From: Mycolicibacterium baixiangningiae
GTDB taxonomy: Bacteria > Actinomycetota > Actinomycetes > Mycobacteriales > Mycobacteriaceae
Reading direction: 5' to 3'
Length of the DNA: 64,000 bases
Assembly: GCF_016313185.1 (NCBI RefSeq)
Contig: NZ_CP066218.1
Span: forward strand, 1,488,001 to 1,552,000
Shown: one piece after another, positions 1,706-15,354 of the stretch
How positions within the stretch are numbered: position 1 is the first letter of the stretch
Layout: every line of letters starts with the position of its first letter
Position numbers and translations under genes: made by a program
Notes under the pieces: model-generated
Seen by the model: only the letters and a program-made list of their open reading frames with translations
What the model was told of the DNA's origin: nothing
The model's database searches: none

Positions 1706-2050
1706 CCCACGCGCGGCCGTATGGCGTCGATTCGCCACTTCCGCAGTGTCGATCGGTCCACTCAGAACCGGCCGTCGTCGCTCAGTTCGCCATTGGCAAC
1801 GAGTTGGCGCTCAGTGTCTTCCATGTGTCGGGCTGGGGGTTCCACCGACGCGGCACCCGGGGTGGTGGGATCCGGCGTGGTCTCCACCTCGAAGAGGTCG
1901 TCCCAACTGCCGGCGGCGTGGACGGGGCCCGCAACGGCGTTTCACTGAAACCGCGGGGTCCGATTCGCCGAATCGTCGGCCAAACCGTCCTCTGGCGCTG
2001 GGTGAATGTGCAAACATCCGTTTCGGCGCAGCGGAGGGACGGGGTTCACG
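1706..2050. other. Intergenic stretch, no convincing gene
   Basis: About 345 bases between formamidase and the repeat-containing hydrolase. On the minus strand one frame (1765-1941, stop at 1762-1764) reads as an ordinary acidic protein tail (...SWDDLFEVETTPDP...) but has no credible start, so it could be a gene remnant or chance. No clear terminator hairpin was seen after formamidase. The purine-rich GGAGGGACGGGG just before 2051 is the ribosome binding site of the next gene. Confidence 0.5.
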
Positions 2051-3805
2051 ATGGAACGCATTCCGATGTGGTTGGGGATCGGTGCGGTCACCGCCGGCGT
2101 CTCGGCGGCCGCGCTCGCCGGTGCCGGCGCCGCCGGCGCGGAGACCGAGGACGGCTCCGGTCCACCCGCCGCCTCCAGTTCCGAACAGTCGACCGCCGGG
2201 GCCGAGGCCCAAGCCCCGGACGTGACGGAAGAACCGGTTGACGAAGAGCCCGTCGGCGAAGAACCGGTTGACGAAGAGCCCGTCGGCGAAGAACCGGTTG
2301 ACGAAGAGCCCGTCGGCGAAGAACCGGTTGACGAAGAGCCCGTCGGCGAAGAGCCGGTCGACGAAGAGCCCGTCGGCGAAGAGCCGGTCGACGAAGAGCC
2401 CGTCGACGACACCGTCGCCGACGATGCGCCGATGTCCGATGGTGACGACCTCGACGACACGACGGCGCGGGGCGACGAAGAAGAGCCCGCGCCGCCGAAC
2501 GTCCCAGCCGACGACACAGTGGTGGTCGAGGAACCCGCCCCGCCCCTCGTCGAGACCGAGGACGGGCCCGGCACCACCACGGCGGTGATGAGCCGACAGT
2601 TAGACGAACCCGGCCCCGTCGCACGCGAATTCACCTTGCCGCCGGTGTCTTTCCCCGCACCTGGGACGCCCCTGCCGTCACCGTTCCCGTTCCTGGACCA
2701 GCTCCCGCCGTTGGCCAAGGCGATCGGTTCGGTCGCCTTCGACGTCATTGGCGCCTTGGTGAAGATCTTCACCGGCCCACCGCAACTTCCCCCTGGCAGC
2801 ACCGTGTCCGTGCGCACGTCGACCCTCGAGATCGCCGACGGCCGCCGCGTCACCGCCGACTGGTACTTCCCCGAAAAGGACACACCCCCTGAGCGGATGA
2901 TCTACCTGCAGCACGGCTTCCTCGCCATCGGCCCCATGTACAGCTACACCGCCGCCTACCTGGCCGAACACACCAACAGCGTGGTCGTCGCGCCCACGCT
3001 GACCTCGAATCCGTTTGCCGCCGAAGGTGTTTGGCTCGGCGGTGATCCCATGTACCGCACTGTCGCTCAACTCTTCACCGGTGACCGCGAGGCGCTCAAT
3101 GCCAGCGCGGTGGCCAGCGGCTACACCGAGCGGTACGGCGCCACCGCAGTGCTGCCAGAGGAATTCGTGCTGGTGGGCCACTCCCTCGGCGGCGGCTTCG
3201 TCGCCGGTGTGGCCGGCCACTACGCGCGGGCCGTCACCGTCGACGGCGAAGCCAACCACCTGGTGGGCGTCATCTCGCTCGACGGTGTGCCGCCGCGCGA
3301 CGACATCGTCGGCGACTCGCTGGAGGCGCTCGACGACTCCGGCACCTACGTGCCGTTCATCGAGTTGCATGCCCCGACCAGCTTCTTCAACTCGACCAGC
3401 AACATCACCGAGGCGCTGGCCGCCGGCCGCGACGGCAAATTCCACGGCGTCGAACTCAACGGCGGCGTGCACATGGACTCGATGCTGGGCGGCAACCCGA
3501 TCATCCAGCTCGCCGCCTACGTCGTCGCCGGGTTCCCGCAACCCCGGAATCCGCCTGCCGCACAACAACTCATGGCCGGCTGGATCAACGACATGTTCGA
3601 CGACCGGATCAACGCGGCCACCGGAGCCTGCGCCGGTGCTGCGTGCACCGGAACCTACGGTCCCGCCGGGTCCACCGTCGAGATCCCGACCGGCAAGGGC
3701 CGCGCCACGGCCACCGTCCTCGGCACCCCGCCCGCGACGTTGCGCAGCTTCGTCCCGGCGTCGCTGTGGCGGCCGACCCGAACGGTGCTGCTGCCCGTCG
3801 CCTGA
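2051..3805 (+). CDS. Secreted alpha/beta hydrolase with acidic decapeptide repeats
   Basis: 584 residues from the ATG at 2051, chosen because a purine-rich GGAGGGACGGGG precedes it and a signal peptide follows at once (hydrophobic residues about 5-30, then AGAETEDG). Residues 60-119 are six tandem copies of EEPVDEEPVG, and acidic Pro/Glu/Asp-rich sequence continues to about 185. The C-terminal 350 residues form an alpha/beta hydrolase: an oxyanion-type YLQHGF segment near residue 280, the nucleophile elbow GHSLGG near residue 375 and a likely acid/His region (LNGGVHMDSM) near 475. It is probably an exported lipase or esterase; the acidic repeat may act as a spacer in the envelope. The substrate cannot be told. 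Confidence 0.82.
   Translation: MERIPMWLGIGAVTAGVSAAALAGAGAAGAETEDGSGPPAASSSEQSTAGAEAQAPDVTEEPVDEEPVGEEPVDEEPVGEEPVDEEPVGEEPVDEEPVGEEPVDEEPVGEEPVDEEPVDDTVADDAPMSDGDDLDDTTARGDEEEPAPPNVPADDTVVVEEPAPPLVETEDGPGTTTAVMSRQLDEPGPVAREFTLPPVSFPAPGTPLPSPFPFLDQLPPLAKAIGSVAFDVIGALVKIFTGPPQLPPGSTVSVRTSTLEIADGRRVTADWYFPEKDTPPERMIYLQHGFLAIGPMYSYTAAYLAEHTNSVVVAPTLTSNPFAAEGVWLGGDPMYRTVAQLFTGDREALNASAVASGYTERYGATAVLPEEFVLVGHSLGGGFVAGVAGHYARAVTVDGEANHLVGVISLDGVPPRDDIVGDSLEALDDSGTYVPFIELHAPTSFFNSTSNITEALAAGRDGKFHGVELNGGVHMDSMLGGNPIIQLAAYVVAGFPQPRNPPAAQQLMAGWINDMFDDRINAATGACAGAACTGTYGPAGSTVEIPTGKGRATATVLGTPPATLRSFVPASLWRPTRTVLLPVA
2228..2407 (+). repeat. Six tandem 30-bp repeats encoding EEPVDEEPVG
   Basis: Six in-frame 30-base units lie head to tail inside the secreted hydrolase gene. 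Units 1-4 are identical (containing GAACCGGTTGACGAAGAGCC); units 5 and 6 carry synonymous changes (GAGCCGGTCGAC), and unit 6 ends in GAC instead of GGC. Identity at synonymous positions points to recent expansion by slippage or unequal crossover. Confidence 0.95.
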
Positions 3806-4131
3806 CGGACAGCAGCTGGGAGCGGCAGCCGTGAGGGACGCCTCAGGGCTGCCGGCGGTAGATGGGCGCCGGGCGCTGACCGCGTTGACCTGGATGCTCT
3901 GGGGGAGCCGCTCGCGGGCGAGCGTACGGGTCATCGATCGCAGCGTGGCTTTGCGGCCAGTAGGCGGCTGATCAGGGCCCCCCCATCTCGTCGACGATGG
4001 AGGCGGGTCAGCACGATTACGCCGCCGGTGTTCAGCAGGGCGTCGGTGTCGAGACCCGTCATGCACGCCGTCATGCCGCCCACATGACGCAACACAGCGG
4101 CTACGGACTTGTGCGCGGCATCACAGCGCGC
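3806..4131. other. Intergenic stretch upstream of the catabolic operon
   Basis: About 325 bases with no protein-like frame on either strand. It separates the secreted hydrolase from the eight-gene operon and becomes clearly AT-richer only at its right end, where the operon promoter lies. I see no terminator with a U-run. Confidence 0.5.
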
Positions 4132-4152
4132 TAATTTAATCAAATGTTTGAT
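4132..4152 (+). promoter_or_regulatory. Leaderless promoter with palindromic operator over the start codon
   Basis: TAATTT at 4132-4137 fits a mycobacterial -10 hexamer placed six bases before the ATG at 4144, so the mRNA probably begins at the start codon. The sequence ATCAAATGTTTGAT (4139-4152) is a palindrome with ATCAAA/TTTGAT arms around TG and overlaps both the inferred transcription start and the ATG. A repressor bound there would block initiation; the obvious candidate is the GntR-family protein encoded by the last gene of the same operon. Confidence 0.55.
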
Positions 4153-5397
4153 ACAACCCCGTCCGGTGAGAGTCCACCCCTCCAGGGGGTGCGCGTCGTC
4201 GACGCGGCCACGATTTACGCGGGCCCGATGGTCGCAACCTTGCTCGGTGATTTCGGCGCCGACGTGATCAAGGTCGAGCATCCGCGTGGTGATGGGCTGC
4301 GGCAGTGGGAATGGCGCAAGGACGGCGAGTCGCTCTGGTGGGCGCTGGTCGGCAGGAACAAGCGCGACATCAGCCTCGCGCTGTCCGATCCGCGCGGTGC
4401 CGACGTGATGCGCAGACTGCTGGCCGATGCGGACGTGTTCGTCGAGAACTTCCGGCCGGGCACCTTGGAGAAGTGGGGCCTGGACCCCCAGGACCTGCTC
4501 GCCGCCAACCCGAAGCTGGTCGTGGTCCGCGTGTCCGGCTTCGGGCAGACGGGCCCCTACAGTTCCCGCCCGGGGTTCGGCACCATCGCCGAGGCGATGT
4601 CCGGGTTCGCCGATACCAACGGCGCCGCCGACGGCCCCCCGGTGCTCCCGCAGTGGCCGCTGGCTGACGGCGTCGCCGCACTCGCCGGAGCCTTCGCGAC
4701 GATGGTGGCGTTGCGCCACGCGGAGGCCACGGGTCAGGGCCAGATCGTCGACCTGTCCATCTACGAACCGCTGTTCTGGATCCTCGGCGCACAGACGTCG
4801 GCCTACGACCAGCTCGGCACGCTTCCGACCCGTCAGGGCAGCCGAACGGGTTTCAACGTCCCCCGGGAATGCTTCCAGACCCGCGACGGCCGGTGGATCG
4901 CGCTGTCGGGTGCGACCACGTCCACCGCGCAGCGCATCATGCGGGTCGTCGAGCGGCCGGATCTTGCCGAGGCCGAATGGTTCTCCGACATATCCGGGCG
5001 GATTGCGCACCGAGACGAGATCGACGAGTCGATCGCGACATGGGTCGGAGACCGTGACAACGCCGACGTGCTGGCGGCGTTCGATGCTGTCGGGGCCACC
5101 GCCGGCCCGGTGTACAGCGCGGCCGACATCGCCGCCGATCCGCACTTCACCGAGCGCGGCAGCATCGTCACCGTCGACCACCCCACCCTCGGCGCGATGC
5201 GCATGCAGGGCTTGATCGCCCAGCTGTCGCGAACACCCGGCCGCATCAACGGTCCGGGCCCCGTGCTCGGCGAACACAACGACGACATCCTGCGCGACCA
5301 ATTGGCCTACCCGCAGGCCGTTTTGGACGAACTCACCGAGGCCGGCGTCATCGGCCGCACCCGCCAACCCATCTCGACGACCCAAGGACGACCATGA
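4144..5397 (+). CDS. Class III (CaiB/BaiF) CoA-transferase
   Basis: 417 residues, typical for this family, which moves CoA between carboxylic acids. Family signatures are VRVVDAATIYAGPMVATLLGDFGADVIKVE near the N-terminus, ENFRPGTLEKWGL around residues 99-111, GFGQTGPY, and the VDLSIYEPLF segment carrying the likely catalytic aspartate near residue 203. It is the first gene of a run of eight, most of which overlap by 1-4 bases, so it is probably translated from a leaderless mRNA and couples downstream translation. In context it should activate the acid made by the alcohol and aldehyde dehydrogenases for cleavage by the CoA-ester lyase. The acid and the CoA donor are unknown. Confidence 0.88.
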   Translation: MFDTTPSGESPPLQGVRVVDAATIYAGPMVATLLGDFGADVIKVEHPRGDGLRQWEWRKDGESLWWALVGRNKRDISLALSDPRGADVMRRLLADADVFVENFRPGTLEKWGLDPQDLLAANPKLVVVRVSGFGQTGPYSSRPGFGTIAEAMSGFADTNGAADGPPVLPQWPLADGVAALAGAFATMVALRHAEATGQGQIVDLSIYEPLFWILGAQTSAYDQLGTLPTRQGSRTGFNVPRECFQTRDGRWIALSGATTSTAQRIMRVVERPDLAEAEWFSDISGRIAHRDEIDESIATWVGDRDNADVLAAFDAVGATAGPVYSAADIAADPHFTERGSIVTVDHPTLGAMRMQGLIAQLSRTPGRINGPGPVLGEHNDDILRDQLAYPQAVLDELTEAGVIGRTRQPISTTQGRP

Positions 5398-6743
5398 CCA
5401 CCAATACGGCGTCGACAGCGCCCAACGAACGACTGGTCAGGCGCGTGGCGCTGGCCAGCGGCATCGGCTCGATGCTCGAGTTCTACGACTTCTACCTCTA
5501 CGGCGCACTGTCCGCGACGATCTTCGGCACCCTGTTCTTCCACAGTGACGACCCGGCCGTGGGCACCCTGCTCGCGCTGGCGACCTTCGGCGTCGGATTC
5601 GTGGCCCGTCCGATCGGCGGAATCATCGCCGGCCACTTCGGGGACAAGGTCGGCCGCAAGAGCGTGCTGATCGCGACGCTCGCCCTGATGGGCGTGTCGA
5701 CCGTCGGAATCGGGTTGCTTCCCACCTACGACTCGATCGGCACCGCGGCGCCCATCCTGCTGGTCACGCTGCGCGTCCTGCAGGGCCTGGCACACGGCGG
5801 CGAGTGGGGCGGCGCGTCCATCATGACCATCGAGCATGCCCCGGAGGGCCGCCGCGGCTTCTACGGCAGTTGCCCGCAGATGGGTATCTACGCTGGGCTC
5901 GTACTCGCAAGTCTGGTGCTCGGCGCCTTCATGATGCTTCCCGATGATCAGTTCAAGAGCTGGGGCTGGCGAATCCCGTTCATTCTCGGCGCCGTGTTGA
6001 TGCTCGTCGGGCTCTGGCTTCGGCGAGCGATCACCGAGTCGCCCGAGTTCGCCGCGGCCATCGCTGCCCGGTCGATCGAACCGGAGCAGGAGAAGAAGCG
6101 CATCCCGCTGGTGGAGGCATTCCGCACCGGTCGGCGCGGGATCTTTGTCACCTTCGCGGCCAAGGCCGCGGAGACCTGCACCTTCTACCTGATCACCGTC
6201 TTTGCGCTGACGCTGGCCAAGAGTGGTGCCGGGGAATCGACCGCACGCAACGGCATCCTGATCGCGTCCGTCGTCGCCATCATCACCATCGGGGCGTTCG
6301 GAGTGCTCGCCGACAGGATCGGGACGCGGACCGTCTACATGGCGGGTGCCGGCTTCATGGTCCTCTTCGCGTTCCCGTTCTTCTGGCTCGCCGGCACCGA
6401 CTCCGGGCCGGCGCTGTGGCTCGCGCTGATCGTCGGCCTGGCCGTCGGACACTCGCTCATGTACGCCGCGCAGGCAAGCTACTTCTCGGCGCTGTTCGAC
6501 ACCAAGGTCCGGTTCACCGGCGCATCGCTGGGGTACCAGCTCGGGGCCGCCATCGTCGGCGGCTTCACCCCGCTCATCGCCGCAGCGCTGCTGATCCGAA
6601 GCGATGGCGCGACGTGGCCGATCGCGACGTACATCGCCGGGGTGTGCGTGGTGAGCTGCCTCGTCATGGCGGTGTGGGGCAAAGTCCGCGCCACTGCCCC
6701 CGTGATCGTCACCCTCGACGCCCCGGTTGAGGTGCAGCGATGA
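5394..6743 (+). CDS. MFS transporter, metabolite:H+ symporter (MHS) type
   Basis: 449 residues with about 12 membrane segments. The N-terminal LASGIGSMLEFYDFYLYGAL and the loop 2-3 motif GHFGDKVGRKS (about residues 80-90) are typical of the MHS family, proton symporters for small carboxylates, shikimate, betaine or citrate-type compounds. The start codon overlaps the stop of the CoA-transferase by four bases (ATGA). As part of the operon it presumably imports the growth substrate, which the family suggests is a polar organic acid or polyol-derived acid. Confidence 0.88.
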   Translation: MTTNTASTAPNERLVRRVALASGIGSMLEFYDFYLYGALSATIFGTLFFHSDDPAVGTLLALATFGVGFVARPIGGIIAGHFGDKVGRKSVLIATLALMGVSTVGIGLLPTYDSIGTAAPILLVTLRVLQGLAHGGEWGGASIMTIEHAPEGRRGFYGSCPQMGIYAGLVLASLVLGAFMMLPDDQFKSWGWRIPFILGAVLMLVGLWLRRAITESPEFAAAIAARSIEPEQEKKRIPLVEAFRTGRRGIFVTFAAKAAETCTFYLITVFALTLAKSGAGESTARNGILIASVVAIITIGAFGVLADRIGTRTVYMAGAGFMVLFAFPFFWLAGTDSGPALWLALIVGLAVGHSLMYAAQASYFSALFDTKVRFTGASLGYQLGAAIVGGFTPLIAAALLIRSDGATWPIATYIAGVCVVSCLVMAVWGKVRATAPVIVTLDAPVEVQR

Positions 6744-7870
6744 AGTCGACGACACTGCCGGAATACACGCGGGCGGCCGTCGTCCGGGGATTCGGTGAAC
6801 CGCTGAAGCTCGAGGAAGTCGCCGTCCCGCAGACCGTGGAGGCGGGCGGCCTGCTGGTCGAGATCGTGGCCTGCTCGCTGTGCGGTACCGACGTGCACTG
6901 CTGGGAGGGCACTTTGGCCATCCCGGTTGAGCTGCCGTTGATCCTCGGCCACGAGATGGTCGGCCGAATCATCGCGATCGGGGACGGCGCCGACGTCGAC
7001 TCGGCCGGGCAACCGCTACGGATCGGTGACCGCATCCTGTGGACGCACGCCGTCTGCGGCCGCTGCGTCATGTGCGCCAGGAAGCGTCCGACGCTGTGCC
7101 GCAACAAGATCCCCTACGGTCAGGCCACCATGGACCAGTGGCCCAACCTGCTCGGCGGGCTGGCCCAGCACTCCTACGTGCTGCCGGGGTCGGGCCGACT
7201 CCGGGTGCCAGACGGCGTTCCCGACGACCTCGCCAGCATGGCGAGTTGCGCATTGCGTTCGGTGGTCAACGCGGTCGAACAAGCCGGCCGGGTAGGACCC
7301 GAACACACCGTCGTCGTTCAGGGTGCAGGGCCCCTCGGCATCCTCGCCACGGGATTGTTCGCCCAGGGGGGCGCCGGCCGGGTCATCACCGTGGGTGCCC
7401 CCGACGCACGCCTGGAGATCGCGACCGAATTCGGCGCCGACGAGGTGATCTCCCTTGCCGCACATCCGGATCCAAGCGATCGCCTGGCGATGATCAGGGA
7501 CGCCACCGGCGGACTCGGCGCGGATCTGGTCGCCGAGTTCTCCGGCCATCCCGCCGCATTCGCCGAGGGCGTGGAGATGGCCGGACCGGACGGCCGCTAC
7601 CTGGTCGTCGGCCAACTCGGGGCAGGCACCACCGCCATCGCTCCCGGCACCATCACGAAGAAGAACCTCAACGTCATCGGGTCCTTCTCCGGTGACCTCT
7701 CGCACTACCGCACCGCCCTCACCATTCTCGAACGGTACGCGGGTCGGCTACCGTTCGACCGCCTGATCAGCGGTCGCTATCCGCTCGCCGACATCGATTC
7801 GGTGATGACGCGGATGCAGAGCTTTCAGGAAATCAAACCCGTTCTACTGCCGCAGGAGGCCCAGTCATGA
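6740..7870 (+). CDS. Zinc-dependent medium-chain alcohol dehydrogenase
   Basis: 376 residues; NAD(P)-dependent oxidation of an alcohol to an aldehyde or ketone. Catalytic zinc ligands appear as Cys48 (CSLCGTD) and His71-Glu72 (LGHEMVG); the structural zinc site is Cys106, Cys109, Cys112 and Cys120 (VCGRCVMCARKRPTLC). The nucleotide-binding fold starts at VVVQGAGPLG near residue 190. The ATG overlaps the transporter stop by four bases. Together with the following aldehyde dehydrogenase it implies two-step oxidation of a primary alcohol to a carboxylate. The substrate is not identifiable from sequence. Confidence 0.88.
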   Translation: MKSTTLPEYTRAAVVRGFGEPLKLEEVAVPQTVEAGGLLVEIVACSLCGTDVHCWEGTLAIPVELPLILGHEMVGRIIAIGDGADVDSAGQPLRIGDRILWTHAVCGRCVMCARKRPTLCRNKIPYGQATMDQWPNLLGGLAQHSYVLPGSGRLRVPDGVPDDLASMASCALRSVVNAVEQAGRVGPEHTVVVQGAGPLGILATGLFAQGGAGRVITVGAPDARLEIATEFGADEVISLAAHPDPSDRLAMIRDATGGLGADLVAEFSGHPAAFAEGVEMAGPDGRYLVVGQLGAGTTAIAPGTITKKNLNVIGSFSGDLSHYRTALTILERYAGRLPFDRLISGRYPLADIDSVMTRMQSFQEIKPVLLPQEAQS

Positions 7871-9402
7871 CCGCCACCACGAGCCGCCCCACCGACATCA
7901 GCACGCTGGCGGACCCCGCTGCCAGCTCGGACTTCGCCGACCTCTCCATGTTCGTCGCCGGATCACCGACCGCCGCCGTCGACGGAGCGACCTTCGATTC
8001 CTACGAACCGCGCACAGGCCGGGTGTGGGCGAAGCTGCCCCGGTCAGGCACCGAAGACGTCGACCGTGCCGTGCGGGCGGCGCGCGCTGCCTTCGAGGGA
8101 CCGTGGGCCGCAGTCTCAGCTGCCGACCGCGGCCGCTTCCTGATGAAGATCGCGGCCGTCGTCGACCGGCATCGCGACCAGCTCACCATCATCGAATCCC
8201 GCGACAACGGCAAGCCGGTACGCGAGGTTCGGGCCGAGATCGACGCTGTAGTGCGCTATTTCGAGTACTTCGCCGGCGTATGCCAGACCACCCTCGGTGA
8301 AACCCATCCCCAGGCGGCCACGGCCTTCAGCTACACCCGCCGCGAGCCGGTCGGCGTCGTCGGCGCGATCGTGCCCTGGAACTCACCGCTGCTCATGCTG
8401 GCCTGGAAGCTGTCGCCCGCGCTGGCGGGCGGCAACACGATCATCCTCAAGCCCGCCGAGGAGACCTCGGTGTCCGCTGTGGTGTTCGCTCAGCTCGTTG
8501 CCGAGGTCGGGCTGCCCGACGGCGTCTTCAACGTGGTCACCGGAGTCGGTGAGGAGGCCGGCGCCGCGCTGGTCGCCCACCCGGATGTCGACAAGATCGC
8601 CTTCACCGGCTCGACCGAAGTGGGCAGGCAGATCGCCGCCACCGCGGCCAACGACCTCAAGCTCGTCACCTTCGAGCTCGGCGGCAAGTCCCCCACGGTG
8701 ATCTTCGCCGACGCCGACCTCGACGCCGCGGTGCATCGCACGGCCTACGGCATCTTCTCCGCTGCCGGGCAGACGTGCCAGGCGGCATCGCGAATCTTCG
8801 TGCAGGACAGCATCCATGACGAATTCTTGGATCGATTCGCGTCGTTGGCACGTAGCATCCGCGTGGGCGACCCCCTGTCCGAACGAACCCAGATGGGCGC
8901 CCAGATCTCCGCTCAGCATCGGGAGCGGATCGCCGGGTACGTTGCCAGCGGCACCCAGGAGGGCGCGCAGCTGATCTGCGGCGGAACCCGTCCCACCGAG
9001 CCGCCGCTGGCTGACGGCTACTACTACTCGCCGACCATCCTGGACGGCGTCAACCGCGACATGAAGATGATCCGCGAGGAGATCTTCGGACCGGTAACCG
9101 GAGTCATGACCTTCACCGACGAAGCCGACGCCGTCGCCAAGGCCAACGACACTGAGTACGGCCTGGCCGGATCGGTGTGGACGCGAGACGTGACCCGCGC
9201 CCACCGCGTCGCGGCCGGTATCGCCGCCGGCCTGATCTGGGTCAACACCACCCGCACGATCAACCACCTCGTTCCCTTCGGCGGCTACAAGCAGTCCGGA
9301 TACGGACGCGAGGGCGGCCAAGCCGTGATGGAGCACTACACCCGGATCAAGTCCGTGTGGGTCGACCTGCAGGACGACCTGCCGAACTGGTACGCCGACT
9401 GA
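7867..9402 (+). CDS. NAD(P)+-dependent aldehyde dehydrogenase
   Basis: 511 residues, full length. Key features are the VPWNSPL segment near residue 175, the cofactor motif FTGSTEVGR, the general base Glu270 in FELGGKSP and the nucleophile Cys304 in AGQTCQAA; the C-terminal EIFGPV and PFGGYKQSGYGREGG are intact. The start overlaps the alcohol dehydrogenase stop by four bases. It should convert the aldehyde from the preceding enzyme to the acid that the CoA-transferase then activates. Confidence 0.9.
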   Translation: MTATTSRPTDISTLADPAASSDFADLSMFVAGSPTAAVDGATFDSYEPRTGRVWAKLPRSGTEDVDRAVRAARAAFEGPWAAVSAADRGRFLMKIAAVVDRHRDQLTIIESRDNGKPVREVRAEIDAVVRYFEYFAGVCQTTLGETHPQAATAFSYTRREPVGVVGAIVPWNSPLLMLAWKLSPALAGGNTIILKPAEETSVSAVVFAQLVAEVGLPDGVFNVVTGVGEEAGAALVAHPDVDKIAFTGSTEVGRQIAATAANDLKLVTFELGGKSPTVIFADADLDAAVHRTAYGIFSAAGQTCQAASRIFVQDSIHDEFLDRFASLARSIRVGDPLSERTQMGAQISAQHRERIAGYVASGTQEGAQLICGGTRPTEPPLADGYYYSPTILDGVNRDMKMIREEIFGPVTGVMTFTDEADAVAKANDTEYGLAGSVWTRDVTRAHRVAAGIAAGLIWVNTTRTINHLVPFGGYKQSGYGREGGQAVMEHYTRIKSVWVDLQDDLPNWYAD

Positions 9403-10421
9403 TGGACCGACCGACCGTCATCATCTCGCCGGACAGCCTCAAGGGCTGTCTGTCGGCGGCCGACGCCGCCGCGGCCGTCGCCGCAGGCATCACCGCGACG
9501 CGCCCCGAGGTCGCCGTCAGGACCGTGCCGCTGTCCGACGGCGGCGAGGGCCTGGTCGACGTGCTCCGACATCGGCTCGGCGGCGAACTGCGCTACGTCA
9601 CCGTCGCCGACCCACTAGGGCGTCCGACCTCGGCGCACTACCTCGTCCTCCCGGACGGTCGCGCCGTCACCGAAAGTGCCCAGGCCATCGGGCTCACCTT
9701 GCTCACCGCCGAGGAACTGGACCCGTTCGTGGCATCGAGCCGCGGCCTCGGCGAGCTGGTCGCACACATCGGCGCCGACCCCGACGTGCGGGAACTCGTC
9801 CTGGGCGTTGGCGGGGTGGCGACCGTGGACGGCGGCGTGGGAATGCGGCACGTGCTGGCGGGGCTGCCCATCCCCGTTCGGGTCGCCTCCGACGTTCGCA
9901 ACCCGTTACTCGGGGAACATGGTGCCGCAGCGGTATTCGGCCCACAGAAGGGTGCGTCCCCCGCCGACGTGGTGGAGCTGGAGCGCCGGCTGGCCGGGCT
10001 CGGGCACCCTGCTGCGATCGCCGATCATCCCGGCGCCGGGGCAGCGGGCGGGATCGGCGCCATGCTGCTCGCGATGGGAGCCACCATCGAGTCCGGCATC
10101 GAACTCGTCCTCTCGCTGACGGATTGGCGAGAAGCCGCCGCGTCGGCGAACCTGGCTGTCACCGGCGAGGGCACCGTCGACCTGTCCTCAACTGAGGGCA
10201 AAGTCGTCTCCGGCGTGATCGCCGCCGCCCGCCCCAGTCGCCTTCCCGTGGTGGTGTTCGGCGGACGCGTCCATTCCGACGGCGCCGCGGCGCTGCGTGG
10301 ACTAGGGGCTGTCGACGTGCGACCCCTCAGCGGCAGCATCGCCGATGCCGCAACCGATTTGTACGCGTTGGGCGCTTTCGTGGCATCACGCCTGAACTCG
10401 TGGAATCGAGCTGCCGTATGA
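9402..10421 (+). CDS. Glycerate kinase (GlxK/GarK type)
   Basis: 339 residues from the ATG at 9402, which shares its first base with the TGA of the aldehyde dehydrogenase. Family motifs are PDSLKGCLSAADAA at the N-terminus, LSDGGEGLVDVL, ESAQAIGL, VLGVGGVATVDGGVGM, FGPQKGAS, GAGAAGGIGAMLLAMGA and VTGEGTVDLSS near residue 250. These enzymes phosphorylate D-glycerate, in characterised members to 2-phosphoglycerate. It is shorter than the E. coli enzyme (about 380) because of a trimmed middle. Its presence implies that the operon's pathway yields glycerate, most simply by reduction of hydroxypyruvate or tartronate semialdehyde. Confidence 0.87.
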   Translation: MDRPTVIISPDSLKGCLSAADAAAAVAAGITATRPEVAVRTVPLSDGGEGLVDVLRHRLGGELRYVTVADPLGRPTSAHYLVLPDGRAVTESAQAIGLTLLTAEELDPFVASSRGLGELVAHIGADPDVRELVLGVGGVATVDGGVGMRHVLAGLPIPVRVASDVRNPLLGEHGAAAVFGPQKGASPADVVELERRLAGLGHPAAIADHPGAGAAGGIGAMLLAMGATIESGIELVLSLTDWREAAASANLAVTGEGTVDLSSTEGKVVSGVIAAARPSRLPVVVFGGRVHSDGAAALRGLGAVDVRPLSGSIADAATDLYALGAFVASRLNSWNRAAV

Positions 10422-11302
10422 CGTCAGCACTACCCCTGCTTCGCACGCTGCTGTTCGTGCCGGGCGATCGCCCCGACCGGATCGCGAAGGCAGTCGCCAG
10501 CGCGGCCGACGGTGTGGCGATCGATCTCGAAGATGCGGTCGCGGTATCGCAGAAGGCCGTGGCCCGGGACGCTGTCGTCTCCGCATTGCCCACGCTGCCC
10601 GCTGAGGGCGGCCCCGTGATCTGCGTGCGGATCAATGCGATGGACAGCGGCTTCGCCGACGACGACGTGGCCGCCCTGGAACCCGCGCTACACCGCATCG
10701 ATCTCGTCATCGTCCCGATGAGTGCCGAACCCGACGGGATTCGGCGCGCAGCAGAGCTGTTGGCCCGGGCGGAACAGGCTGCTGGCGCCGATATCGGCCG
10801 AATCGGCATCATCCCTCTGATCGAAACGGCGGCAGGCATTTTCGAAGCGCGCGCGATCGCTGCGGCCGATGCCAGGGTGCACACATTGGCGTTCGGTCCC
10901 GCGGACCTGTCTCGTGAACTCGGCATCACCCCCACCGCCGACGGGGAGGAATTCTTGTTCGCACGGTCCCAACTGGTGCTCGCCGCGGCCGCGGCGCACT
11001 GTCCGCCGCCGGTGGACGGACCCTATCTCGACCTCAGCGATGCCGACGGCCTTGTACGCTCGGCCCGCCGAGCCCGCATGCTCGGCTTCAGCGGCAAGCA
11101 GGTCATCCACCCGTCGCAGGTTTCCGGAGTCGCCGGCGCCTTCGCGGCGACCCCGGCTGAAATCGAATGGGCGCGGGCGGTAGACGTGGCTTTCACCGCA
11201 GCGGAAGCCGACGGTGTCTCGTCGATCAGACTCCCCGACGGGACCTTCGTCGACTACCCGATCGCCCGACGCGCCAGGGCAATTCTGGCGGGCGTCCGAT
11301 GA
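10418..11302 (+). CDS. HpcH/HpaI-type CoA-ester lyase (CitE-like, malyl/citramalyl-CoA lyase family)
   Basis: 294 residues from the ATG at 10418, which overlaps the glycerate kinase stop as ATGA. The N-terminal FVPGDRPDRIAKA, VAIDLEDAVA with its Mg-binding acid pair, PLIETAAGI and AFGPADLSRELGI, plus HPSQV near the C-terminus, are those of CitE-like lyases. The family cleaves malyl-, methylmalyl- or citramalyl-CoA to an acyl-CoA and a 2-oxoacid. In this operon it is the expected carbon-carbon cleaving step after CoA transfer. The oxoacid released (glyoxylate, pyruvate or hydroxypyruvate) cannot be read from the sequence. Confidence 0.85.
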   Translation: MTSALPLLRTLLFVPGDRPDRIAKAVASAADGVAIDLEDAVAVSQKAVARDAVVSALPTLPAEGGPVICVRINAMDSGFADDDVAALEPALHRIDLVIVPMSAEPDGIRRAAELLARAEQAAGADIGRIGIIPLIETAAGIFEARAIAAADARVHTLAFGPADLSRELGITPTADGEEFLFARSQLVLAAAAAHCPPPVDGPYLDLSDADGLVRSARRARMLGFSGKQVIHPSQVSGVAGAFAATPAEIEWARAVDVAFTAAEADGVSSIRLPDGTFVDYPIARRARAILAGVR

Positions 11303-12252
11303 AGATCGTCGTCACTCGAGGTTTGCCACCCGCCACGCTGGCACCGCTGGCCGAGCTCGGCGACGTGTGGGTGTCCCCGCACGACCGCCCCCTCACCGCC
11401 GACGAGCTGTGCGACGCCGTCCGCGGCGCAGCCGCAGTCGTGAGCATGCTCAACGACCGCATCGACGACTCGGTGCTGACCGCCGCAGGCACCCAACTGC
11501 GCGTCGTCGCCAACACCGCAGTGGGTTATGACAACCTCGACGTCGCCGCCATCGCGCGGCACGGTGCCACCGCGACCAACACTCCCGGTGTACTCGTCGA
11601 TGCGACGGCCGACCTGACCATGGCCCTGCTGCTCGACGTCACCCGCCGAGTCTCCGAGGGAGACCGGCTGATCCGCTCAGGCCAGTCCTGGTCGTGGGAC
11701 ATCGGCTTCATGCTCGGCACCGGTCTGCAGCGGAAACGACTCGGGATCATCGGTATGGGTCACATCGGTCGGGCGGTGGCGGAGCGGGCGACGGCCTTCG
11801 GCATGAATGTCGTCTATCACGCACGTCGCGAACACCCTGGCGTCATCGGCCGCCGGGTCCCACTCGAGGAACTGCTCGCCACGTCCGACGTCGTGTCCCT
11901 GCACTGCCCGCTGACCGCCGACACCCGCCACCTGATCGATGCCGCGGCCCTCCACCGTATGAAGGCCAGGTCGTACCTGATCAACACCGCCCGCGGGCCC
12001 ATCGTCGACGAAAGCGCGCTGGTAAACGCCCTCGCGACGGGAGTCATCGCCGGCGCCGGCCTCGATGTGTACGAACACGAACCCGATGTGCATCCGGCCC
12101 TGCGTGGTCTTGCCAACGTGCTGCTCGCACCACATCTCGGGTCGGCGACCGTCGAAACGCGGACACGGATGGCAGAATTGGCAGTCGAGAATGTGGTCCA
12201 GGTGCTCACGGGCGGAGGCCCGATCACGCCGATCGCGGTACCGTCACGTTGA
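11299..12252 (+). CDS. D-2-hydroxyacid dehydrogenase (glyoxylate/hydroxypyruvate reductase type)
   Basis: 317 residues from the ATG at 11299, overlapping the lyase stop by four bases. The NAD(P) fold is marked by IIGMGHIGRAVAE near residue 150; the catalytic Arg lies in NTARGPIVDE near 230, the acid in GLDVYEHEP near 260 and the catalytic His279 in LAPHLGSAT. The family interconverts 2-oxoacids and D-2-hydroxyacids. Next to a glycerate kinase the most economical reading is reduction of hydroxypyruvate to D-glycerate or of glyoxylate to glycolate. Confidence 0.87.
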   Translation: MKIVVTRGLPPATLAPLAELGDVWVSPHDRPLTADELCDAVRGAAAVVSMLNDRIDDSVLTAAGTQLRVVANTAVGYDNLDVAAIARHGATATNTPGVLVDATADLTMALLLDVTRRVSEGDRLIRSGQSWSWDIGFMLGTGLQRKRLGIIGMGHIGRAVAERATAFGMNVVYHARREHPGVIGRRVPLEELLATSDVVSLHCPLTADTRHLIDAAALHRMKARSYLINTARGPIVDESALVNALATGVIAGAGLDVYEHEPDVHPALRGLANVLLAPHLGSATVETRTRMAELAVENVVQVLTGGGPITPIAVPSR

Positions 12253-12280
12253 CATCAACGGTGCCGGTCGAGAGGAAGCG

Positions 12281-12955
12281 ATGGCCACCCCACCCGAGCC
12301 CCTCCCGACGACCAAGGCGGAAGAGGCATTCATCGCCATCCGCCGATTGATCGAACGCGGTCAATTGCCGGGCGGGGCCAAGCTGACGTTGGCCAGCCTG
12401 TCCGAGGAACTCCAGATGAGCCTGACGCCCATCCGGGAAGCGCTGCGCATGCTGCAGGCCAACGGACTGGTCGAGTACAAGCGTCACCACGGCCACGTCG
12501 TGACGCGTTACTCCATACAGCGCGCCGAAGAGGTCTACCTGCTTCGTCAGACACTCGAGCCGCTGGCGACCAAGCTGGCAGCCGCCAGTGCAACCGCCGC
12601 CGAGCTGAAGAGCATTCGCGAGTTGCAGGAGGAGTTCCGCCTGGTCGTGGACGGCGATCCGCCGCGCTTCGCCGACGTAGTCGAACTCAACGCGCGATGG
12701 CATCGCATGGTGTACGCGTCGGCGCACTCGGCGTTGTTGGACGACTTCATCGAACGACTCTGGAATGGCGTGCCCTACCAAGCCATTTGGTTCGTACAGC
12801 GCCGACACCAGTCCGTAGCCGACCACGAAGCCGTCACCCTCGCTCTCGAGGCGAGAGAGGCCAGAGTTGCTGAAGAAGCGATGCTGGACCACATCGGTCG
12901 GGGACGCGCCGCGACGGTCGAACACCTGCACGCCATCGGGTCGCCCGAGACCTGA
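12281..12955 (+). CDS. GntR-family transcriptional regulator (FCD/FadR subfamily)
   Basis: 224 residues from the ATG at 12281, preceded by GAGGAAGCG. Residues about 12-75 form the winged helix-turn-helix (LASLSEELQMSLTPIREALRMLQANGLVEYKRHHG), and the rest is an all-helical FCD ligand-binding domain with the acidic/His metal-type residues in LNARWHRMVYASAH and VADHEAV. It starts 28 bases after the dehydrogenase and closes the operon. It is the likely regulator of the cluster, sensing a pathway acid and binding the ATCAAA-TG-TTTGAT palindrome at the first gene; that pairing is inference. Confidence 0.87.
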   Translation: MATPPEPLPTTKAEEAFIAIRRLIERGQLPGGAKLTLASLSEELQMSLTPIREALRMLQANGLVEYKRHHGHVVTRYSIQRAEEVYLLRQTLEPLATKLAAASATAAELKSIRELQEEFRLVVDGDPPRFADVVELNARWHRMVYASAHSALLDDFIERLWNGVPYQAIWFVQRRHQSVADHEAVTLALEAREARVAEEAMLDHIGRGRAATVEHLHAIGSPET

Positions 12956-12989: not shown

Positions 12990-13790
12990 TCACTGGGCCG
13001 CAACAGGTGCGACCGGGAAGTCGAAGTAGGTGTCCGGGTACATCTCGGGCTTGTACGTGAAGTGCCACCATTCGCTCTCGTAGCTCTCCAGCCCCTGCTT
13101 CTCGAGCCCCTCCTTCAGCAGCAGCCGGTTCTTCAGCTGCTCACCCTGGATTCGCGGGTCAAGGGTGTGCGACAGCGTGTCGAAGCAGTCGTAGCCGGTG
13201 CCCATGTCGATCGAGTAGTCCACGAAGCGTTCGCTGTTCGGGGCGGTGCAGTCCACCAACGGGAACCCGGGCATGTACACGGGTTCCGGCCTGGCCGGCA
13301 GCGGTAGTGCGACAAGGGTGAGATCGACTGTGCTGCCGCGGCTGTGGCCCGACTTCTCGGCGATGTATCCGTCGGCAACCAGTTGCGTCTTGTCCACGCG
13401 CGGATAGAACTCGGCCTTCATCCGTTGGTCGGGCAGGTTGTTCGCCCACGCGGCGAAGTCGTTGACGGCGCGCTGCGGCCGGTAGCAGTCGTAGACCTTC
13501 AACGAGTAACCCTGGGCGGTGAACTCCTGCTGTGCGCGTCGCAGCGCCTCGGCCGCCGGACGGGCGAGGAGGCAGAGCGGAGCCTGGTAGCCGTCGACCG
13601 GGTCGCCGGTGAAGTTGTGCGGGGTGATGTACCGGATGTCCAGCACGATCGACGGGTCGACGTCGCTGAGCGAGACGAAGTCCGGCGGTGCGACCAGTCC
13701 GGGTTGGGCCGAGGCGACAGGTGTCCCGACAGCGGCGGCGGCCAGGAGTGCGGCGGCGGCGAGCTTCGCGAACATGCGCATGCCCCTCAT
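12990..13790 (-). CDS. Secreted D-alanyl-D-alanine dipeptidase (VanX family)
   Basis: 266 residues from the ATG at 13790, chosen because GGAGG sits seven bases upstream and a signal peptide follows (MRGMRMFAKLAAAALLAAAA...ASAQP). Zinc ligands of the VanX/M15D family are present: His149 and Asp156 in SGHSRGSTVDL, and Glu240 plus His243 in ESEWWHF. Such enzymes split D-Ala-D-Ala. There is no vanH or vanA next to it, and the protein is exported, so peptidoglycan fragment recycling or defence is more likely than vancomycin-type resistance. It is convergent with the GntR gene, 34 bases away. Confidence 0.85.
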   Translation of the reverse strand: MRGMRMFAKLAAAALLAAAAVGTPVASAQPGLVAPPDFVSLSDVDPSIVLDIRYITPHNFTGDPVDGYQAPLCLLARPAAEALRRAQQEFTAQGYSLKVYDCYRPQRAVNDFAAWANNLPDQRMKAEFYPRVDKTQLVADGYIAEKSGHSRGSTVDLTLVALPLPARPEPVYMPGFPLVDCTAPNSERFVDYSIDMGTGYDCFDTLSHTLDPRIQGEQLKNRLLLKEGLEKQGLESYESEWWHFTYKPEMYPDTYFDFPVAPVAAQ

Positions 13791-13821
13791 TTGAACACCT
13801 CCGCGGTGATCGCGCGACGAG

Positions 13822-15354
13822 TCAGCGCCGTCGTCCCAGCCGGTCCCGCACCGCCGCCAACTCCACCGCCACCAACAGTGCGCCCGTCGATCCGCTGCCG
13901 TCGCCGAGCGGCCGACCCATGATCGTCTCGATCCGGCTGATGCGCTGGTACATCGTCTGCCGGTGGATGTTGAGTGCCTTGGCCGCCGCCACCCGCGATC
14001 CGGTGCGGAACAGTGCCGCCAACGTGGCGATGAGTTCGGTCGACCGCTCGGCGGTGAGCAGGGGACCAAGAACCGAGTGCAGAAAGCGGTCCACGGCCGC
14101 CGAATCCACCTCGGACAGGAAGTGATCGATCGCGACATCACGGGCCAGCCCGACGAACTCCGTCTCCGAGGACAACAGGGCGGCCGTCGCCGCGGTCGAC
14201 ATCGCCTCGGCGAGTTCCGGGAGGTCACGCCGCGGTTCGCCGACACCGATCCGCAGGGCCCGCGGCAACGGTGACGAATAGAGTTGGGAGACAAGGGTGT
14301 CGATCACCGTATCGGCGTCCTGGCGGCCGTCGAACCGGACGATCGACCGATGGCGCCCGTCGCGGATCTCCGAGAGCACCGGCCGGTCGTCACGACGCAG
14401 CACCGCCGAGAGCTCGGCCACCTGAATCGGTTCGTCGACGCTGATCGCGACCACGCCGACATACCAGCCGCCGGGCGCGAAGCCCAGATCGCGGGCGGCT
14501 CTGCGCAGCGCCGACTCGGTGTCGGCGCGCAGAACCGCCGGCCTGGTGGTGTCCTCGGCCAGCGCCAGCAACCGGAACACCTCCCGCAGATGCTGATCGG
14601 ACCGGGTCAGCGGCCGCCAGCGCAGCAGTGCCAGCGCCAACGATTCGGGTGCGCGCCGGCACACCGCGGTGACCATCTGGAGGTCCACGCCCGGCCGGGG
14701 CAGCACCTCGAGCGTCGCGATCGTGACACCGGCGGACTCGATCGCCGCGACGTGGCCGTAGCTGCGGGGGCGGGCGCCCTCGACATCCGTGGCGGCCAGC
14801 ACCGCCCCCGACACCGAGCGCACCGCGATCGAGCAGCCGCTGAGCGCACTCAGTCCCGACACCATGTCGTCCAGGTCGCCCTGGGCCGCCAGCACCCCGG
14901 CGAGCATGTGGGTGACCTCGTCGTTGAAGTGCAGCGCGCGCACCGACTCGTTGACCAGCCGGCTGTTGATGGCGCGGGTTACCTCGACGAAGCGGACCAC
15001 CTCGGTCAGCTCGATCAGCGGGAAGTCGCGGACGGCTGCCTGGGCGGTCAGCGCGGCGGGGAACGTTCCGGTCCGGGGCCGCTCGACGGCCAGACCCGCG
15101 GCCCCGGCGTCGGCGAGCGAGTCGATGTAGGCGCGGAGCTGCTCGGGGCCGGAATCGCTGAGGATCACACCCGCCACGAGAAGCAGTTCGCCGCCGCTGA
15201 GCAGTTCCGCGATGTCGAGAACCTCGCTGGTGTGCACCCAGCGGATCTCGGTGTCGAGCCGCCCCCAGCCGGCCAGCACCTGCGGTCGCGCGGCCGCCAT
15301 CGCCGGGTCATCGAGGATGTCCCGCAGGCTCAGTGAGGTCTGGGACGGCAGCAT
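13822..15354 (-). CDS. PucR-family transcriptional regulator
   Basis: 510 residues. The N-terminal PucR domain (SLRDILDDPAMAAARPQV... VSTSEVLDI-like region with ELLLVAGV) is followed by a GGDEF-like middle and a C-terminal PucR helix-turn-helix (RVAAAKALNIHRQTMYQRISRIE, about residues 455-478). Regulators of this kind control purine or nucleobase catabolism. It is divergent from an NCS1 permease and an amidohydrolase with 141 bases between, the classic layout for a local regulator of that pair. Confidence 0.85.
   Translation of the reverse strand: MLPSQTSLSLRDILDDPAMAAARPQVLAGWGRLDTEIRWVHTSEVLDIAELLSGGELLLVAGVILSDSGPEQLRAYIDSLADAGAAGLAVERPRTGTFPAALTAQAAVRDFPLIELTEVVRFVEVTRAINSRLVNESVRALHFNDEVTHMLAGVLAAQGDLDDMVSGLSALSGCSIAVRSVSGAVLAATDVEGARPRSYGHVAAIESAGVTIATLEVLPRPGVDLQMVTAVCRRAPESLALALLRWRPLTRSDQHLREVFRLLALAEDTTRPAVLRADTESALRRAARDLGFAPGGWYVGVVAISVDEPIQVAELSAVLRRDDRPVLSEIRDGRHRSIVRFDGRQDADTVIDTLVSQLYSSPLPRALRIGVGEPRRDLPELAEAMSTAATAALLSSETEFVGLARDVAIDHFLSEVDSAAVDRFLHSVLGPLLTAERSTELIATLAALFRTGSRVAAAKALNIHRQTMYQRISRIETIMGRPLGDGSGSTGALLVAVELAAVRDRLGRRR

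Follow-up and report, generated by a model that had tools for sequence, protein, structure and literature searches.

Coupling of CoA transfer to cleavage by a CitE-type lyase is already known. In the itaconate/methylsuccinate cluster of Pseudomonas (ict, ich, ccl, mcd, mmgE), as outlined in excerpts of PMC12290011 and PMC9875883, CoA is placed onto a branched C5 dicarboxylate and a CitE-type lyase then yields acetyl-CoA and a 2-oxoacid. Here we describe an operon of eight genes in a 64,000-nucleotide stretch of Mycolicibacterium baixiangningiae (NCBI RefSeq assembly GCF_016313185.1, contig NZ_CP066218.1, positions 1,488,001 to 1,552,000 of the forward strand; hereafter the window) which shares that logic but has no hydratase, acyl-CoA dehydrogenase or MmgE/PrpD, and instead contains an alcohol dehydrogenase (ADH), an aldehyde dehydrogenase (ALDH), a 2-oxoacid reductase and, in four of the nine genomes carrying it, a glycerate kinase. 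Its lyase shares superfamily and catalytic residues with the malyl-CoA lyase of the ethylmalonyl-CoA pathway and the 3-hydroxypropionate bi-cycle, as presented in excerpts of PMC3832036, but stands in a different operon and has Gln in place of the Trp that faces the 2-oxoacid substituent. The reductase and kinase belong to the same protein families as the glycerate-pathway enzymes (GyaR/GhrB-type reductases and GlxK/GarK-type kinases), although both score under the equivalog cut-offs and the kinase lacks an internal stretch. This gene set was not found described. We propose tentatively, and with somewhat less than even confidence, that the operon serves uptake and breakdown of the branched C5 acid HOCH2-C(OH)(COOH)-CH2-CH2OH, or a close relative of it, via itatartaryl-CoA.

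The seven catabolic genes form one chain with overlaps of 4, 4, 4, 1, 4 and 4 bases, and the gene of a GntR/FCD regulator starts 28 bases past the end of the D-2-hydroxyacid dehydrogenase (HADH) gene, an arrangement that had been read from the sequence in the original prediction and is exact to the base. The span 4144-12955 is fully taken up by the eight genes, all on the plus strand (Table 1). The Pfam families found in gene order were CoA_transf_3, MFS_1, ADH_N/ADH_zinc_N, Aldedh, Gly_kinase, HpcH_HpaI, 2-Hacid_dh and GntR/FCD, in agreement with the enzyme classes predicted for all eight genes; the Pfam search of the last four genes used open reading frames with extra N-terminal residues, and the NCBIfam search was rerun with trimmed starts.

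Table 1. Features of the operon in the window (positions are those of the window)
Feature	Position	Strand	Basis
Sigma-70-like -35/-10 pair (TTGTGC, 17 bases, TAATTT); candidate leaderless promoter	4109-4137	+	Sequence
AT-rich element TAATCAAATGTTTGATACA over the start codon; candidate operator	4137-4155	+	At the CoA-transferase start in 9/9 operon genomes
Class III (CaiB/Frc) CoA-transferase	4144-5397	+	Pfam, NCBIfam; top model a dicarboxylate transferase, under cut-off
MHS-type metabolite/H+ symporter	5394-6743	+	Pfam, NCBIfam
Zinc-binding alcohol dehydrogenase (Zn-ADH; medium-chain dehydrogenase/reductase, MDR)	6740-7870	+	Pfam, NCBIfam
NAD(P)-dependent aldehyde dehydrogenase	7867-9402	+	Pfam, NCBIfam
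Glycerate kinase (PF02595/TIGR00045) without internal ~35 residues; optional operon member	9402-10421	+	Pfam, NCBIfam
Acyl-CoA lyase of HpcH/CitE type with intact catalytic residues; Gln where malyl-CoA lyases have Trp	10418-11302	+	Pfam, alignment
D-2-hydroxyacid dehydrogenase, closest to glyoxylate/hydroxypyruvate reductases	11299-12252	+	Pfam, NCBIfam
GntR/FCD transcriptional regulator	12281-12955	+	Pfam, NCBIfam

The same gene order was found in nine genomes, that of the window included, at 66-98% identity, with the kinase absent in five. The presence of the operon was judged by tblastn; a simple gene caller overlooked genes or put them in the wrong frame at several loci. In genome draws that were samples of species representatives, six of the 396 genomes drawn from the window's genus, its own included, had a lyase ortholog (E <= 1e-55), and all six carry the order CoA-transferase, MHS, ADH, ALDH, (kinase), lyase, HADH and GntR; a CoA-transferase ortholog (E <= 1e-130) occurred in 4 of 178 genus genomes drawn, and all four carry the operon. 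Among the Pseudonocardiaceae, the family of genome G868, 11 of 249 genomes have the lyase at E <= 1e-50, and the full operon is present in three of them (G868, G917 and G1221; 66-83% identity) and absent from the stretches compared in the remaining eight. Wider draws, which overlap one another, returned a lyase ortholog in 1 of 394 genomes of the class, 3 of 397 of the order and 1 of 296 of the phylum (E <= 1e-50 for the last two), always counting the window's own genome, which was the sole carrier in the class and phylum draws. No match to the lyase at E <= 1e-40 came from plasmid records. The lyase of M. mengxianglii is 94% identical to that of the window, homologues 79-80% identical were recovered from M. 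smegmatis and M. goodii, and a contig of 5,344 bases from a Streptosporangiales metagenome-assembled genome (L038) holds the CoA-transferase (63%) and lyase (56%) alone of the eight genes.

The ratio of nonsynonymous to synonymous substitution rates (dN/dS) was 0.05-0.20 for all genes in comparisons with four of the five remaining carriers of the genus, bar the ADH against G192 (0.23), and 0.17-0.38 against G868. In G192 (L045), the closest relative, the ADH gene runs over two frames, with tblastn pieces at 6020-6901 and 6901-7146, through either a sequencing error or decay. No gene family outside the operon was common to more than three of the nine carriers as judged by the simple gene caller; G101 and G368 have common operon neighbours, and the other flanks differ in the stretches compared. 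Because the order is repeated in nine genomes at 66-98% identity, it is more than would be expected by chance, and its retention across two families with mostly different flanks supports the prediction that the operon is one co-inherited catabolic unit and excludes an order specific to one strain.

In the haloarchaeal malate synthase, the methyl group of pyruvate contacts Pro231 and Trp257, both of which are conserved in malyl-CoA lyases, according to excerpts of Zarzycki and Kerfeld (PMC3832036). We mapped the positions of that study by sequence alignment, so the pocket argument is one of alignment and not of structure, and placed the Trp column with the help of its distance of 26 residues from the Pro and of malyl-CoA lyase 5ugr. 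The conserved Asp/Glu/Asp, Arg, Glu, Asp and lid Asp are all kept, placing the protein in the CitE-like superfamily, as had been predicted, with intact catalytic and metal positions, and apart from malyl-CoA thioesterases, which have Glu at the lid position. In all nine operon lyases, and in that of L038, the Pro is kept and Gln replaces the Trp. The motif could be read in 115 of the best 120 out of 504 lyase homologues, with Gln in 101 and Trp in none. The comparison leaves out the paralogues L003 and L006 of the window's genome; its other paralogues have Trp (L002), Val (L004) and Ile (L005), and Leu occurs in L008-L010 and 9nzb.

The original prediction had formulated the substrate as HO-C(X)(COOH)-CH2-CH2OH, cleaved after oxidation and CoA transfer to acetyl-CoA and a 2-oxoacid, and had considered both glyoxylate (X = H) and hydroxypyruvate (X = CH2OH) as that product. 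The residue change bears on the former. If 2,4-dihydroxybutyrate were oxidised to a malate enantiomer whose activated form the lyase splits into acetyl-CoA and glyoxylate, with subsequent reduction of glyoxylate to glycolate, the similarity of the HADH to glyoxylate reductases would be accommodated, as would the finding that, among solved structures, a malyl-CoA/beta-methylmalyl-CoA lyase is closest to the lyase in sequence. However, such a route appears decidedly unlikely, since the Trp is gone from all nine operon lyases while the paralogue L002 still has it, and since malate could enter the tricarboxylic acid cycle without CoA transfer; it also leaves the glycerate kinase unexplained.

The next-nearest lyases, 52-57% identical to that of the window, are found in other Pseudonocardiaceae and have Ala or Val at the Trp position (nine of nine sequences from eight loci, L086-L093). 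Three of these eight loci were annotated: that of G1125 contains MmgE/PrpD, a class III CoA-transferase, MaoC and an acyl-CoA dehydrogenase; that of G1121 contains MmgE/PrpD, the only gene searched for there; and that of G1128 contains an enolase and a 2-hydroxyacid dehydrogenase as well as MaoC and an acyl-CoA dehydrogenase, while more distant genes there encode MmgE/PrpD, a CoA-transferase and a second lyase. These neighbourhoods resemble the itaconate/methylsuccinate cluster in the excerpts of PMC12290011, and the next-nearest lyases therefore probably cleave citramalyl-CoA, a C-substituted substrate. Since its relatives adjoin such genes, the operon lyase is itself probably related to enzymes cleaving C-substituted malyl-CoA esters. 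The enolase of G1128 (490.8 bits, above cut-off), which lies next to these genes and the related lyase within 9275-14165 of L088 (G1128:C8), is additional to a housekeeping enolase and hints at a glycerate-to-phosphoenolpyruvate branch there, a hint of little weight because it comes from one genome and from a cluster with other genes.

Kinship with citramalyl-CoA lyases raises the alternative of X = CH3, in which 2,4-dihydroxy-2-methylbutanoate or a similar compound would yield acetyl-CoA and pyruvate, the HADH having another role such as oxidation of a D-2-hydroxyacid precursor. It is favoured, besides the neighbourhoods just described, by the best NCBIfam model for the lyase, RipC_Ccl, although at 179.2 bits against an equivalog cut-off of 375. 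The solved structures 5vxc and 9nzb, which we take to be CLYBL and Pseudomonas Ccl, both citramalyl-CoA lyases, belong to the same superfamily and likewise have no Trp at the key position, CLYBL having Gln there as the operon lyases do, but both differ from these in having Val at the Pro position. We regard this alternative as unlikely because a pyruvate product would not require the reductase or the glycerate kinase of the operon; in addition, the next-nearest lyases have Ala or Val and not Gln. None of the eight genes encodes an itaconyl/mesaconyl-CoA hydratase (MaoC or similar), which would be expected of a member of the itaconate/citramalate degradation pathway.

X = CH2OH fits both the pocket and the reductase and kinase and is favoured for that reason. 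Hydroxypyruvate, which had been put forward as one of the two possible products, thus gains as the more likely 2-oxoacid from the Trp-to-Gln change, the itaconate-like neighbourhoods of related lyases and the recruitment of a kinase into some operons. With acetyl-CoA as the other half of the cleavage, the CoA ester would be itatartaryl-CoA and its alcohol precursor HOCH2-C(OH)(COOH)-CH2-CH2OH, an acid that we take to be xyloisosaccharinic acid (3-deoxy-2-C-hydroxymethyl-tetronic acid). Xyloisosaccharinic acid is a product of the alkaline degradation of xylan. Glucoisosaccharinic acid was considered as a substrate and rejected by reasoning, as its extra CHOH carbon would give no CoA ester cleavable by such a lyase.

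For the C5 acid, we infer both the identity of the substrate and the order in which the ADH and ALDH would act. The MHS symporter would import the hydroxy acid, and oxidation of its CH2-CH2OH arm by the Zn-ADH and ALDH would produce CH2-COOH and hence itatartarate. From this, the class III CoA-transferase would form the C4 CoA ester, probably with succinyl-CoA as CoA donor, and the lyase would cleave itatartaryl-CoA to acetyl-CoA and hydroxypyruvate. The HADH would reduce the latter to D-glycerate, which a glycerate kinase, encoded within the operon or at another locus of the genome, would convert to phosphoglycerate. A different acyl half with hydroxypyruvate still as product, in which a 3-hydroxylated or 3-methylated branched tetronate would give glycolyl-CoA or propionyl-CoA, is consistent with the retention in all nine operon lyases of the Ala that gives room for propionyl-CoA in malyl-CoA lyases (excerpts of PMC3832036); the operon has no gene for glycolate or propionyl-CoA metabolism, and we give this option little credence.

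The nearest relatives of the CoA-transferase and the HADH also favour this route. The CoA-transferase matched PF02515 over 366 of 366 positions (399 bits), as expected of class III, and its NCBIfam scores were 240.7 bits for succinate-glutarate, 214.3 for formyl-CoA, 207.0 for succinyl-CoA:mesaconate and 150.8 for carnitine-type transferases; its best solved relative is succinate-hydroxymethylglutarate CoA-transferase. The HADH matched the D-2-hydroxyacid dehydrogenase domains and is closest to glyoxylate reductases and glycerate dehydrogenase/glyoxylate reductase, its best model being glyoxylate reductase (304.5 bits against an equivalog cut-off of 455). The transporter exceeded the cut-off of MFS_1 and scored 400.2 bits against a cut-off of 443.45 for TIGR00883. 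The MHS class consists mostly of carboxylate importers, which fits a hydroxy acid substrate. A second MHS-type transporter, 35% identical to that of the operon, lies 3' of the regulator in G1221 (L085, 4920-6107).

The top score of the ALDH, to betaine-aldehyde dehydrogenase (535.5 bits, cut-off 668.6), together with a match of the MHS protein to ProP (239.2 bits, cut-off 544), would suit a quaternary-amine route in which a carnitine-type class III CoA-transferase acts, a 3-hydroxyacyl-CoA is cleaved to an aldehyde and a betaine-aldehyde-type ALDH follows. This appears highly improbable given that the CoA-transferase is closer to dicarboxylate than to carnitine transferases, that the MHS protein is closer to the shikimate transporter (370.4 bits), and that CitE-type lyases yield 2-oxoacids; the reductase and glycerate kinase would also be unexplained. 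A role in phosphonate metabolism, to which weak NCBIfam matches pointed for the ADH (202 bits, cut-off 328.1) and the regulator (91.5 bits, cut-off 271.5), was dropped as the operon has no phosphonate gene.

The glycerate kinase, one of the seven catabolic genes of the original prediction, proved not to be a constant member of the operon: it is present in only four of nine (the window's, G192, G176 and G328), where it always lies between the ALDH and lyase genes. It scored 260.6 bits for TIGR00045, above the subfamily cut-off of 168.45, as expected of a type I glycerate kinase, with the match in two stretches. An internal stretch found in six other PF02595 kinases is missing from it, but the motifs common to them are retained, and its dN/dS is 0.16-0.20. 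The kinase seems to be an optional extra that hints at the output of the pathway, rather than a required core step.

Several points weigh against the route through itatartaryl-CoA. Not only is the kinase absent from five of nine operons, but a PF02595 kinase outside the operon was found in all eight carriers checked (all but G1221), including four without an operon kinase, and therefore co-occurrence discriminates little. Gln at the Trp position is not specific: 5vxc (CLYBL) has it too, as does L039, a Desulfobacteraceae lyase of 34% identity. The CoA-transferase, MHS protein, ADH, ALDH, lyase, reductase and regulator all score under the cut-offs of their best NCBIfam models, and formyl-CoA transferase is the second-ranked model for the CoA-transferase. 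Finally, xyloisosaccharinate is known mainly from alkaline xylan degradation, and a natural source in soil is a supposition. Taken in full, the reading that this is the first gene set for a complete route that turns xyloisosaccharinic acid, by way of itatartarate and then itatartaryl-CoA, into acetyl-CoA plus phosphoglycerate, that its lyase has a new specificity as an itatartaryl-CoA lyase and that a GntR protein controls a leaderless promoter seems rather unlikely.

The layout at the start of the operon looks like that of a leaderless promoter with an operator at the start codon. In all nine carriers the first ATG lies within the element WWATYAAATGTTTGAYACR, and no ribosome-binding site is visible ahead of it. 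A pattern search allowing up to two mismatches found the element once in eight of the nine carrier genomes and twice in G101, where the extra site has two mismatches; the backwards pattern, as a control, gave one match over the nine genomes. In the window, the element holds the perfect inverted repeat ATCAAA-TG-TTTGAT (4139-4152), which occurs once in the 64 kb and in none of 100 shuffles; among the nine loci, the perfect form is present in two, the window and L049. As the element is partly coding sequence, protein conservation may add to its conservation. The -35/-10 pair is the sole match in the window, with 0.05 expected in shuffles, and its -10 box ends 6 bases ahead of the ATG. The fixed pattern TTGTGC-(17-18)-TANNNT with 6 bases to the ATG was found in five of nine operon loci; the other four do not match it, L047 being one -35 base off TTGTGC and the three Pseudonocardiaceae loci having TACATT 7 bases ahead of the ATG. 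Potentially, the GntR/FCD protein controls this promoter through the element at the first start codon.

The term itatartaryl was not found in the openly licensed literature searched. Excerpts of PMC9875883 report that the Pseudomonas strains tested did not grow on a 2-hydroxyparaconate/itatartarate mixture. Among the openly licensed papers listed on isosaccharinic acid, titles and opening abstract lines dealt with communities, isolates and chemistry, and no title names genes for its degradation. Saccharinic acids are relevant to pulping liquors. Several abstracts also link them to radionuclide mobility in cementitious waste. If our proposal is true, a 9 kb operon opens itatartarate use and the genes for saccharinic acid degradation to testing; if the substrate is different, the operon still represents a conserved orphan pathway, self-contained and equipped with a regulator of its own. 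The laboratory species M. smegmatis also encodes the lyase (79%).

Some neighbouring genes were also recorded. A gene resembling ATP-dependent DNA ligase (by eye) lies near the regulator in G101, G368 and G917 (L046 3086-5268, L047 13657-15869 and L054 12097-13200), two of which are close relatives. In the window, an acetamidase/formamidase (PF03069; 458-1705) lies 5' of the operon, and no counterpart of it turned up in the compared stretches around the other operons. It is followed by a 599-residue protein (2006-3805) with an acidic tract of VDEEPVGEEP-like repeats and no Pfam match, a homologue of which lies on the opposite side of the operon in G192 (L045 16314-17999). Downstream, on the minus strand (12990-15354), are a Peptidase M15 of the D-Ala-D-Ala dipeptidase family and a PucR-type regulator.

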